Assembly (NCBI RefSeq): GCF_014279875.1
Contig: NZ_CP047952.1
Coordinates: forward strand, 620,001-684,000
Direction of reading: 5' to 3'
DNA length: 64,000 bases
From: Synechococcus sp. MEDNS5
Lineage (GTDB): Bacteria; Cyanobacteriota; Cyanobacteriia; PCC-6307; Cyanobiaceae
Position numbers and translations under genes: made by a program. Positions 54,816 to 64,000 of the stretch are shown here, piece by piece. The stretch's first letter is position 1. The number at the start of each line of letters is the position of its first letter. The notes beneath the pieces were generated by a model that made no database searches, was not told the DNA's origin, and worked only from the letters and a program-made list of their open reading frames with translations.

Positions 54816-56746
<1,931 letters not shown>

Positions 56747-59315: not shown

Positions 59316-60731
59316 ATGAGCAAGAAGTACGACGCCGGGGTCAAGGAGTACAGAGACACTTACTGGACTCCTGATTACGTTCCCCTCGACACCGACCTGC
59401 TGGCCTGCTTCAAGTGCACAGGCCAAGAAGGTGTGCCCAAGGAAGAAGTTGCCGCTGCTGTGGCTGCTGAATCCTCCACCGGCACCTGGTCCACTGTGTG
59501 GTCCGAGCTCCTCACCGATCTCGACTTCTACAAGGGCCGTTGCTATCGCATTGAAGACGTCCCTGGTGACAAGGAGGCGTTCTATGCCTTCATCGCCTAC
59601 CCCCTCGACCTGTTCGAAGAGGGTTCGATCACCAACGTTCTGACCTCCCTGGTCGGCAACGTGTTCGGTTTCAAGGCTCTTCGCCACCTGCGTCTGGAAG
59701 ACATCCGCTTCCCGATGGCGTTCATCAAGAGCTGCTACGGCCCGCCTAACGGCATCCAGGTTGAGCGCGACCGGATGAACAAGTACGGCCGTCCTCTGCT
59801 GGGTTGCACCATCAAGCCGAAGCTCGGCCTGAGCGGTAAGAACTACGGCCGTGTCGTCTATGAGTGCCTGCGTGGTGGTCTGGACTTCACCAAGGACGAC
59901 GAGAACATCAACTCCCAGCCTTTCCAGCGTTGGCAGAACCGCTTCGAATTCGTTGCGGAAGCTATCAAGCTGTCCGAGCAGGAGACCGGCGAGCGCAAGG
60001 GTCACTACCTCAACGTGACCGCCAACACTCCCGAGGAGATGTATGAGCGGGCTGAGTTCGCCAAGGAACTCGGAATGCCGATCATCATGCACGACTTCAT
60101 CACCGGTGGCTTCACCGCCAACACCGGTCTGTCGAAGTGGTGCCGCAAGAACGGCATGCTCCTGCACATCCACCGCGCCATGCACGCGGTGATCGACCGT
60201 CACCCCAAGCACGGCATCCACTTCCGCGTTCTCGCCAAGTGCCTGCGTCTGTCCGGTGGTGACCAGCTCCACACCGGCACCGTGGTTGGAAAGCTGGAAG
60301 GTGATCGTCAGACCACCCTCGGCTACATCGACCAGCTGCGCGAATCTTTCGTGCCCGAAGACCGCAGCCGCGGCAACTTCTTCGATCAGGACTGGGGTTC
60401 CATGCCTGGCGTGTTCGCCGTCGCTTCCGGCGGTATCCACGTGTGGCACATGCCTGCACTGGTCACCATCTTTGGCGACGACTCCGTCCTGCAGTTCGGT
60501 GGTGGTACCCACGGTCACCCCTGGGGTTCCGCTGCAGGTGCTGCTGCCAACCGCGTGGCCCTCGAGGCCTGCGTCAAGGCCCGCAACGCCGGCCGTCATC
60601 TCGAGAAAGAGAGCCGCGACATCCTCATGGAAGCCGGCAAGCACAGCCCCGAGCTGGCCATCGCCCTCGAGACCTGGAAGGAGATCAAGTTCGAGTTCGA
60701 CACCGTCGACAAGCTCGACGTTCAGAGCTGA
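59316..60731 (+). CDS. rbcL: Ribulose-1,5-bisphosphate carboxylase large subunit (form IA)
   Basis: Fixes CO2 onto RuBP. The 471-residue protein has [17 protein letters not shown] (catalytic Lys), the carbamylated-Lys region [41 protein letters not shown] and the loop [11 protein letters not shown]. Sequence and co-location with csoS genes indicate the alpha-carboxysome form IA. A GGAG Shine-Dalgarno lies 8 bases before the ATG. A strong hairpin follows its stop codon. Confidence 0.98.
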
Positions 60732-60790: not shown

Positions 60791-61132
60791 ATGCCTTTCC
60801 AGAGCACCGTGGGTGACTATCAAACAGTCGCCACCCTGGAGACCTTCGGCTTTCTTCCGCCGATGACCCAGGACGAGATCTACGACCAGATCGCGTACAT
60901 CATTGCCCAGGGTTGGAGCCCGCTCGTCGAGCACGTCCATCCCAGCAATTCCATGGCCACGTACTGGTCCTATTGGAAGCTTCCTTTCTTCGGTGAGAAG
61001 GACCTCAACGTTGTTGTGAGTGAGCTCGAGGCCTGCCATCGCGCCTACCCCGACCACCACGTGCGCATCGTCGGTTACGACGCTTACACCCAGAGCCAGG
61101 GTGCCTGCTTCGTGGTTTTCGAAGGACGCTGA
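60791..61132 (+). CDS. rbcS: Ribulose-1,5-bisphosphate carboxylase small subunit
   Basis: A 113-residue small subunit that caps the L8S8 enzyme. It shows TLETFGFLPPMTQDEIYDQI, YWKLPFFGEKDLNVVVSELEACHRAYPDHHVRIVGYD and a C-terminal FVVFEGR, all typical of form IA. Two hairpins follow, one spanning its stop codon. Confidence 0.97.
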   Translation: MPFQSTVGDYQTVATLETFGFLPPMTQDEIYDQIAYIIAQGWSPLVEHVHPSNSMATYWSYWKLPFFGEKDLNVVVSELEACHRAYPDHHVRIVGYDAYTQSQGACFVVFEGR

Positions 61133-61233: not shown

Positions 61234-63549
61234 ATGGCAAGACTTTCCAGTCGCGAACTCGCACTCGAGCGCCGCAAGGCGCTGACCACTTCCGGTAAGA
61301 AGTCCTCTGTGGCTGCAGGAGATGGTGCCAATCGTGTGCGCACCGCCGCCGACGCACGTCCAACTCGAACGGATGCTGCTGCCGCTGTTGAGCCAACTGC
61401 TCCAGCCGTTGCTGCTCCCGTGAAACCCACGGGTTCGCTTACATCTGCTTCCCCGTCCCGCAGTTCTCAGGTGAAGCCCCAACGTCATCCCAGCCGGGAT
61501 CTGGTGCTGGCTCGCCGCGAAGCACTGTCCCGCCGCGGAAAGATTGCTGATACCAGCCGCGATCGGAATCGCGCCGACGTTGTCAGTCAGTCCCAGGTTT
61601 CTGTTCCAGCGGCGACACCTGTTGAACAGGCGCAGCTGAGTGCTCCACCCGTAACTTTTAAGCCTCGCTCCGAGCGCCGCAGTGCGACCCCCAAGCGTCG
61701 CGCCCTCGAGAATCCGAGCCGTGCCCTGGTGTTGGCTCGCCGTGATGCCATGTCGAAGCATGGCAAGACCGCCGGCAAGCAACCCACTAGCGCAGCCGCT
61801 GTGGCTCGCCAGGCGAATCCAGATCTCACCAGCCGTGAGCTGGCTCAGCAAGTGCGTGAGCTCCGGGCGAAAGCCGGTGCCCGCAACAAGCAGAGCGCAG
61901 GTGTGACCCGTCCCTCCGGCCCTAACCGCCACGGCGCCAAGCAGGCTGCTGCTGCAGATGCCCATTGGAAGGTGGGTGAAAGCACGACCACTTCCGGCCA
62001 AACCGTGACAGGCACGCAAGCCAACCGTTCAGTGAAGACCACTGGCAATGAGGCCAGCACCTGCCGCTCCATCACTGGCACCGAATATCTAGGCGCTGAG
62101 GTGTTCCAGACGTTCTGCCAGCAGGCGCCTGAGCCCACCACCCCCGCCAAGGTGCGCGTGACCGCCACTAGCCATGGCAACCGGGTCACTGGCAACGAGG
62201 TGGGTCGCTCCGACAAAGTCACCGGAGATGAGCCCGGTACATGCAAAAACGTAACGGGAACTGAATACATCTCTGCTAATCAGTCCGCTGCCCATTGCGG
62301 TGGTGGGCAGGTCTCCCCTCGCAAGGTTGGTCACAGCCATACGCAGCAGGGTCGCCCCGTCAGTGGCGTGATGGTTGGCCGTTCGTCCAGCGTTACCGGT
62401 GATGAAGCCGGTGCTGGCCGCAGTCTCACCGGTGATCAATATCTTGGCTCTGATCCCCTGCCCGAAGGTCGTCCTGCTCCCAAAGTCGGCCTGTCGGGAA
62501 CCCTCTCCGGTACGGGTGTCACCGGCACCATGGTGGGCCGGTCTTCCCAGGTGACAGGCGATGAGTTCGGCTCATGCCATCGCGTTACCGGCGATCAATA
62601 CATCAGTGCAGAACAGGTGAATTCCTTCTGCGGCGGCAAGCCCGAGCCCGAAGCTGCCAAGGTCGGCTTCAGCGTCACCAATCGCAACCAGGTGGTGAGC
62701 GGAACACGCACCGGTCGCTCGGAGCGTGTCACCGGCGACGAGCCCGGCAGTTGTCAGGCCGTGACCGGTACGCCCTATGCAGGTCTCGAACAGGCGGGTC
62801 AGCACTGCGGTACTTCTGCTGTGCAGGCCATCCGCGAGCGCACCCCCGTTCGCCCTGGCACTCCTTCCGCCGCCATGACTGGAATCCAACCCGGCGTGGG
62901 TGGTGTCATGACCGGTGATCAGCGCGGTGCTTGCGAAGCGATCACTGGTACTCCCTATGTGGGGGCAGACCAGCTCGCTCAGGCCTGTGGTGAAAGGGCG
63001 CCAGCTGGAACCGACACCCATGGCCAAGCCCCTGATGGTGCTGCCTGGACACGGTTCAGTGTGATGTCTCCAGCTCGTGCTGCTCAACAGCAACGTGATG
63101 CCCAGGGTTCTGTCACTGGTACTTCCTATGAGCAGGGAAATCGCATCACCGGCCCTTTTGATATGGCCGGTGGCAAGGTCACCGGCACAGAGCAGTTCCG
63201 TTTCGATAACCGCGAATTCCAGCGTCGTCATTTTCAAGACACACCCCCTGTGGCTGATGCTCCGGTCACCATGGATGAGGATCAACATCCTGTTTCCCGC
63301 GTGACCGGCGAAGGTTCGGCGAGGAAAGTCACCGGTGACGACTGGGACCGTGGTGAGCACGTCACCGGTACGGAGGGTGCTTCGGCCCGTCGGCGCAATC
63401 CAAGCCGTACTGGCCCGATGAGTGCCATGTCTCCCTTCGAGAGCAAGCGAAATGATGCAATCGAATGGCCTGTTAGCCGCGTGACCGGTTCCAGCGGCAA
63501 CACCGAAAAGGGCTCGCTGATCACCGTCTCCGGCGGCGCACGGGGCTGA
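61234..63549 (+). CDS. csoS2: Carboxysome assembly scaffold protein CsoS2
   Basis: A 771-residue disordered scaffold that links Rubisco to the shell. The N-terminal region has four Rubisco-binding helical repeats near residues 6-24, 87-103, 162-178 and 200-216 (type SRxLxLxRRxAL...GK). The middle region, residues about 246-588, has six repeats with VTGDE.GTC..VTGTEY-type motifs and paired cysteines. The C-terminal region ends in a conserved peptide (VSRVTGSSGNTEKGSL...). Length is the full-length form; I saw no slippery heptamer that would make the short form known from proteobacteria. Confidence 0.97.
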   Translation: MARLSSRELALERRKALTTSGKKSSVAAGDGANRVRTAADARPTRTDAAAAVEPTAPAVAAPVKPTGSLTSASPSRSSQVKPQRHPSRDLVLARREALSRRGKIADTSRDRNRADVVSQSQVSVPAATPVEQAQLSAPPVTFKPRSERRSATPKRRALENPSRALVLARRDAMSKHGKTAGKQPTSAAAVARQANPDLTSRELAQQVRELRAKAGARNKQSAGVTRPSGPNRHGAKQAAAADAHWKVGESTTTSGQTVTGTQANRSVKTTGNEASTCRSITGTEYLGAEVFQTFCQQAPEPTTPAKVRVTATSHGNRVTGNEVGRSDKVTGDEPGTCKNVTGTEYISANQSAAHCGGGQVSPRKVGHSHTQQGRPVSGVMVGRSSSVTGDEAGAGRSLTGDQYLGSDPLPEGRPAPKVGLSGTLSGTGVTGTMVGRSSQVTGDEFGSCHRVTGDQYISAEQVNSFCGGKPEPEAAKVGFSVTNRNQVVSGTRTGRSERVTGDEPGSCQAVTGTPYAGLEQAGQHCGTSAVQAIRERTPVRPGTPSAAMTGIQPGVGGVMTGDQRGACEAITGTPYVGADQLAQACGERAPAGTDTHGQAPDGAAWTRFSVMSPARAAQQQRDAQGSVTGTSYEQGNRITGPFDMAGGKVTGTEQFRFDNREFQRRHFQDTPPVADAPVTMDEDQHPVSRVTGEGSARKVTGDDWDRGEHVTGTEGASARRRNPSRTGPMSAMSPFESKRNDAIEWPVSRVTGSSGNTEKGSLITVSGGARG

Positions 63550-63556
63550 TGGCCTG

Positions 63557-64000
63557 ATGGTTCGCTCCATGCCTTTTCGTGGCGGGCGACCTCAGGCGCC
63601 CACGGCCCCTACCCGGCGTCAGCTGTCTGCCCAGGACGGTCAACCGTCGACGTCATCTGGGGCTTCAATTCCTTTAACCCGATCTGCTACGCGATCATCG
63701 GCGCTTCAACGCCGCCAAGCGTTGACAACTGCAGGTAAAGCAGCAGTTGTCAATTCTGGATCCGTTACCGCCGGACGTGTTCGTACCCAGCAAGATCGTC
63801 CTCGTCGATCGAGCCAACAGCCCGGATGGGTTAAGAAGTCCTCTCAGCCATCTAAGTCGACTGTCAATCTCAGCCGCTCCTCTCTCCCATGGGCTGTGGA
63901 TTTTCATCCACTCACCGATCAACAACAAAACACTCATCTCCAGGCTTACGAAAGCGAGGTGAAAGGCCGGTTTGATCGAATCGTTCCTGTGCTTAAGCAA
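63557..64000 (+). CDS. csoSCA: Carboxysomal carbonic anhydrase CsoSCA (N-terminal part)
   Basis: CsoSCA dehydrates bicarbonate to CO2 inside the carboxysome. The frame from ATG 63557 stays open to the window end (148 codons), 7 bases after csoS2. The N-terminal ~95 residues are disordered and basic, and residues 49-61 closely match the first CsoS2 Rubisco-binding repeat (10 of 13 identical). The ordered domain begins near PWAVDFHPLTDQQQN, followed by EVKGRFDRIVPVLKQ. The catalytic domain lies beyond the window. Confidence 0.95.
   Translation, partial: MVRSMPFRGGRPQAPTAPTRRQLSAQDGQPSTSSGASIPLTRSATRSSALQRRQALTTAGKAAVVNSGSVTAGRVRTQQDRPRRSSQQPGWVKKSSQPSKSTVNLSRSSLPWAVDFHPLTDQQQNTHLQAYESEVKGRFDRIVPVLKQ

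Follow-up and report, generated by a model that had tools for sequence, protein, structure and literature searches.

The closest described precedents for what we report here are the Rubisco-binding repeats of the scaffold protein CsoS2 and the N-terminal tail of the carboxysomal carbonic anhydrase CsoSCA of H. neapolitanus. According to the accessible sections of Blikstad 2023 (PMC10614612), the Rubisco motif of CsoS2 is RxxxxxRRxxxxxxGK, and the CsoSCA tail of H. neapolitanus is both necessary and sufficient for encapsulation and occupies the CbbL/CbbS groove used by CsoS2, which blocks it; Rubisco sites in this species are estimated to be in surplus, and its docking peptide is not conserved across species. 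The same sections report PTAPx[R/K]R in 87% of cyanobacterial CsoSCA and a CsoS2-type motif in 'a handful' of CsoSCA sequences from the Prochlorococcus genus, and their authors already suggested an evolutionary relationship. CsoSCA is described as a hexamer in Cyanobium and H. neapolitanus, and another study, in its available text, has the enzyme recruited through shell contacts as well. The occurrence of the bare motif in CsoSCA has thus been published before, and what is new in this report is its extent, its origin and its distribution. In the accessible portions of the literature searched, mostly open-access and including PMC11086599, PMC12646314, PMC12918739, PMC11365436, PMC4499774, PMC13249358, PMC13370225, PMC9388693 and PMC13159521, we found no mention of the extended module or of its distribution.

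The window analysed here, a stretch of 64,000 nucleotides, carries cbbL, cbbS, csoS2 and csoSCA in the order of a cso operon, and all features of these genes described below lie on the forward strand. The large subunit of form IA Rubisco, the presumed docking partner, is encoded by cbbL at 59316..60731 (E 1.1e-276 to 1svd), the small subunit by cbbS at 60791..61132, and the scaffold by csoS2 at 61234..63549 (771 aa), the upstream neighbour of csoSCA. The latter begins with an ATG at 63557, and its 5' part fills 63557..64000; the gene extends past the window end (full gene G000:C1:683557-685302 plus stop, 582 aa), and its product was identified as the carboxysomal beta-carbonic anhydrase CsoSCA by the CsoSCA_C domain (PF08936, E 1.5e-53) and by its position after csoS2 in the operon.

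The first-pass annotation of this DNA had matched CsoSCA residues 49-61 (ALQRRQALTTAGK) to CsoS2 residues 10-22 (ALERRKALTTSGK) at 10 of 13 positions, and our recount agrees. It had overlooked R46, which completes the published 16-residue motif, so that RSSALQRRQALTTAGK (residues 46-61, 63692..63739) is an exact RxxxxxRRxxxxxxGK, and likewise a second CsoS2-like element, GRVRTQQD (residues 73-80, 63773..63796), whose counterpart is conserved behind the first CsoS2 repeat, N1. The motif, an 11-residue spacer and GRVRTQQD make up a putatively N1-derived module at residues 42-80 (63680..63796), and upstream of it lies PTAPTRR (residues 15-21, 63599..63619), a candidate Rubisco contact. Within csoS2, the nearest relative of the CsoSCA motif is the N1 repeat RELALERRKALTTSGK at 61252..61299, behind which stands the element NRVRTAAD (61330..61353); repeats N2 and N3 follow at 61495..61542 and 61720..61767. 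A scan of all stop-to-stop frames of at least 60 aa in the window (both strands, six frames, 73,270 residues) gave four matches to the strict motif, namely the three CsoS2 N-repeats and CsoSCA. The strict motif arose in 107 of 200,000 shuffles of the CsoSCA tail, and the 11 of 16 identities between the CsoSCA motif and the N1 of its own genome were reached in none of 50,000 tail shuffles; over 56 genomes, the mean identity was 11.9 of 16 to N1, 8.0 to N2 and 7.1 to N3. CsoSCA carries a single strict motif in the window part of the gene, and the profile matches the whole gene once, whereas CsoS2 has several repeats per chain; any multivalency of CsoSCA would need to be provided by the hexamer. 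In an AlphaFold2 model of the free tail, residues 46-55 form a low-confidence helix (block mean pLDDT 52-54).

The likeness between the two proteins does not end with the motif but spans about 38 residues, through GRVRTQQD. We built a profile from ten CsoS2 N1 modules (nine genera, no CsoSCA) and searched the whole 2.44 Mb genome with it. At an E cutoff of 10 there were five matches: CsoS2 N1 (1.9e-23), CsoSCA (6.2e-7, covering model positions 3-40 of 46), CsoS2 N3 (1.5e-4), CsoS2 N2 (9.6e-4) and one elsewhere (0.325). CsoSCA is therefore second genome-wide, ahead of repeats 2 and 3 of CsoS2 itself, and this ranking, together with the shuffle counts, led us to reject a chance match. Profile-profile comparison with hhalign aligned CsoSCA to CsoS2 over 45 columns (E 3.4e-14) within the group of two genera that carry the motif (g1 and g5, see below) and over 52 columns (E 2.6e-14) for outgroup CsoS2, each E being that of one comparison. 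Since these segments are anchored on the motif, the 34 residues behind it were compared on their own; against the stretch behind N1 they gave E 4.8e-4 and 3e-4 at modest hhalign probabilities of 32 and 40%, against those behind N2 and N3 E 0.03 or worse, and none of 200 column shuffles equalled the real score with either N1 set. The CsoSCA tail alone had three weak matches among PDB sequences at E up to 10 (0.07, 0.35 and 4.7), all of them CsoS2 and aligned through the RVR element, and a CsoSCA search in genome G319 also matched the CsoS2 frame (query residues 22-89, E 6.6e-4). Thus, in the profile, hhalign and PDB-sequence comparisons, CsoSCA resembles an N-repeat past the fixed letters of the motif. 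Of the 57 motif-bearing CsoSCA, 56 have [GDS]R[VIL]R at a distance of exactly 11 residues behind GK, and in 53 the motif is followed by xR[VI]Rxxx[DE].

The second element proved informative about which repeat CsoSCA resembles. The N1 repeat is present in all 179 CsoS2 examined, and an R[VIT][RH] triplet follows it within 22 residues in 178. Outside the group this loose triplet is not N1-specific, since 87 of 107 CsoS2 there also have it behind N2 (against 0 of 59 within the group), and the stricter xR[VI]Rxxx[DE] was used for this reason. After exclusion of the 13 of 179 with fewer than three strict repeats, the strict form was found behind N1 in 161 of 166 CsoS2 (59 of 59 inside the group and 102 of 107 outside) and behind N2 or N3 in none of the 166. 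Copying of N2 or N3 is disfavoured by both this pattern and the post-motif comparison, and the likeness of about 38 residues, second element included, most plausibly reflects copying of the N1 module. In the window (61330-61353) and in other CsoS2, the conserved element behind N1 takes the form R[VI]R[ST]xxDARxTRT. We found no described role for it, and the letters RVR are absent from the main text of two papers on CsoS2; it was the CsoSCA copy that brought it to attention.

We then turn to the distribution of the motif. Of 400 genomes in the family, 356 have a PF08936 match, and these represent 51 of its 59 genera. We sampled 181 cso loci, one per genome. Those of the group come from 28 of the 29 g1 genomes and 32 of the 33 g5 genomes in which csoSCA was matched, two fragments without the tail (G317 and G338) being excluded; the 121 others cover the 49 remaining genera with a match and were selected, not at random, from the matches listed. 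The strict motif is present in 26 of 28 g1 and 31 of 32 g5 genomes, that is, in 57 of the 60, and in none of the 121 loci of other genera, or, without the tailless L218, in 0 of 120 from 49 genera. A profile scan of 180 tails found no degenerate copies in other genera: the best score there was 3.1 bits, and no motif bearer fell below 22.4. P[TS]APx[RK], in contrast, occurs in 166 of the 180 tails and in 48 of 51 genera. Among the CsoSCA sampled, conservation therefore holds for g1 and g5 and fails in the other genera; the motif characterises these two genera, and the wording of the first-pass annotation, 'the cyanobacterial anhydrase', covers too much. Its suggestion that a scaffold repeat was borrowed or copied fares better: copying is most likely, specifically of N1 and with homology past the motif, although not in all cyanobacterial CsoSCA. 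The clade that we presume to be Prochlorococcus has no motif in our sample, and naming in the published set may differ. Compared with the 'handful' in the accessible text of Blikstad 2023 (PMC10614612), the protein and the motif are the same, but here the motif extends to nearly all genomes sampled from two genera, is absent from the others and belongs to a longer region of homology. Two further observations on CsoSCA tails deserve mention. In L178 (genome G267, genus g5), two copies of RNGRPQAPSRRQLRQNQDRS flank the N1-like motif on both sides, a second sign of tail growth by duplication of docking-type elements, and the CsoSCA tails of genus g10 (L077-L082) have a different conserved pair, SKVLRQRELA and RRVRPVA[TA]QV[VI], possibly another lineage-specific docking element.

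Within the fast-evolving tail, the motif is conserved. Among the tail regions compared, PTAPTRR had the lowest pN/pS ratio (0.12); the linker before the motif had 0.75, the motif itself 0.24, the spacer 0.55 and GRVRTQQD 0.39, and the folded core had 0.16. The motif value is influenced by the selection of sequences with the pattern itself, and over the 11 positions that the pattern leaves free it was 0.33. Three of the 60 group members (L177, L058 and L060) have no motif, and all retain PTAPTRR, so the N1 copy is not indispensable there; L177 keeps RVRSAGD, and in L058 and L060 some 70 residues are missing between RRQLQ and QPAWVRR. A tree of 61 rows, picked by hand among the 181, unites g1 and g5 in a single clade (support 84). 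Within it, L058 and L060 are sisters and L177 branches separately, and the motif was thus lost at least twice in the group while PTAPTRR was kept. A tree of 111 rows, from which 43 loci were dropped because the core pattern failed and in which other genera were limited to four rows each, disagrees by placing a small-genome clade inside the group (support 85), which would allow an older origin followed by loss in that clade. As N1 is universal among the CsoS2 examined and occurs in CsoSCA of one group only, the direction from CsoS2 to CsoSCA is favoured.

The Rubisco of the window retains the equivalents of the published docking-site residues CbbL D99, S345, F346 and G362 and CbbS D94 and Y96, numbered by PDB chain index (with which P19 of the paper disagrees). 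The equivalent of CbbL D26, which we take to be a docking-site residue as well, is also present. The counterpart of H. neapolitanus Y72 is F71 in the window CbbL, and phenylalanine occupies this position in 165 of 166 genomes read (51 of 51 in the group and 114 of 115 elsewhere; the count leaves out three unread loci and 12 without CbbL). We found no link between the motif and this site, since phenylalanine is found with and without the motif alike and there is no co-change. Because an arginine can still stack on phenylalanine, and because the hydroxyl that the CsoSCA peptide of H. neapolitanus uses is absent, docking of the CsoS2 type would be favoured. The precedent invoked in the first-pass annotation, proteobacterial CsoSCA that docks on Rubisco where its site and the CsoS2 site overlap, is indeed described for H. 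neapolitanus in the accessible text of PMC10614612, but with another motif and mode. The H. neapolitanus peptide, PRLDLIEQA (PDB 7SMK), shares with the arrangement proposed here a disordered tail, an overlapping groove and blockage by CsoS2, and differs in sequence and in hydrogen bonding; it is absent from the window CsoSCA tail as read from the sequence. The resemblance to the CsoS2 N-repeat or N-peptide (PDB 6UEW; PMC10614612 and PMC4499774 in their available parts) lies in the 16-residue motif, with N1 closest, and in the downstream R[VI]R. In contrast to CsoS2, for which the accessible part of PMC4499774 tabulates strains with four N-repeats and which has shell-binding regions besides, CsoSCA has a single module, located in the tail of an enzyme and paired with PTAPTRR.

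Taken as a whole, we consider it probable that the N1 module of CsoS2 was copied in frame into the csoSCA tail and that the copy docks in the CbbL/CbbS groove in the CsoS2 mode. Under this model, the ancestor of the group would have copied the first Rubisco-docking module of CsoS2, consisting of the 16-residue N1 helix, a short spacer and the R[VI]R element, into the disordered tail of the adjoining csoSCA, beside the more widespread PTAPxRR. The copy would dock in the CbbL/CbbS groove with its arginines stacking on an aromatic pocket, and two candidate Rubisco contacts per chain may provide up to twelve per hexamer. Avidity could then keep CsoSCA within the Rubisco-CsoS2 condensate, and the enzyme would compete locally with CsoS2 for Rubisco sites that are likely in surplus, if the H. 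neapolitanus estimate applies. Docking and competition are predicted here from sequence; the literature searched yielded no Rubisco-binding results for any CsoSCA of the group. A more far-reaching proposal, which we advance tentatively and think possible though doubtful, is that the docking unit is larger than the 16-residue motif, comprising the helix, spacer and R[VI]R common to CsoS2 N1 and CsoSCA, and that the hexamer with its six tails of PTAPTRR plus module serves, alongside CsoS2, as a second cross-linker of Rubisco and not as a passive passenger.

Several alternatives must be weighed against a copied N1 module that docks on Rubisco. That PTAPTRR is the working Rubisco contact, with the N1-like copy being auxiliary or binding a shell hexamer or other CsoS2 partner, seems unlikely to us; the breadth and the strong constraint of the PTAPTRR-type motif and the three genomes that do without the copy speak for it, as does the peptide-array binding of CsoS1 and CsoS1D, mostly at N-repeat locations (PMC4499774, accessible part), but the motif has been retained in 57 genomes, and those of its positions that the search pattern leaves free are also constrained. 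Alternatively, the tail may have evolved a CsoS2-like short linear motif de novo, without copying, as both proteins faced the same Rubisco groove. Rubisco-binding motifs are short and plastic, and H. neapolitanus CsoSCA reached this groove with an unrelated motif; moreover, no similarity survives at the codon level, since the copy shares codons with its own N1 at 211 of 663 common residues (0.32), compared with 0.33 for the N1 of other genomes and 0.35 among the copies of different genomes. However, the likeness reaches the RVR element and is nearest to N1, and convergence must account for both parts and their spacing, unless the RVR element belongs to the docking unit; on balance we find this explanation improbable.

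The same codon counts bear on the age of the copy: as it shares codons with its own N1 no more than with those of others, it appears to be old and held at the protein level. Gene conversion between csoS2 and csoSCA was rejected, because the copy does not track the N1 of its own genome at either the codon or the residue level. A recent duplication, gene conversion or an assembly artefact would be easy to imagine for two adjoining genes, yet besides this lack of tracking, the copy occurs in 57 genomes, several of them single-contig assemblies, and we regard such an origin as extremely improbable.

If the preferred reading, an old copy of N1 that docks on Rubisco, is true, one Rubisco-docking module is used in two carboxysome proteins, recalling the Rubisco-binding motif of the pyrenoid, which, going by the title of a 2020 study by Meyer, reportedly guides pyrenoid assembly. 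For the recruitment of carbonic anhydrase in cyanobacterial alpha-carboxysomes, the group offers an answer that is both concrete and testable, and natural variants without the copy exist within it. The window also contains, upstream of the cso locus, a small lipoprotein-like ORF (56228-56746) with a DDSMK tandem repeat at its end, the lipoprotein call being made by eye from LAAC after a hydrophobic start.
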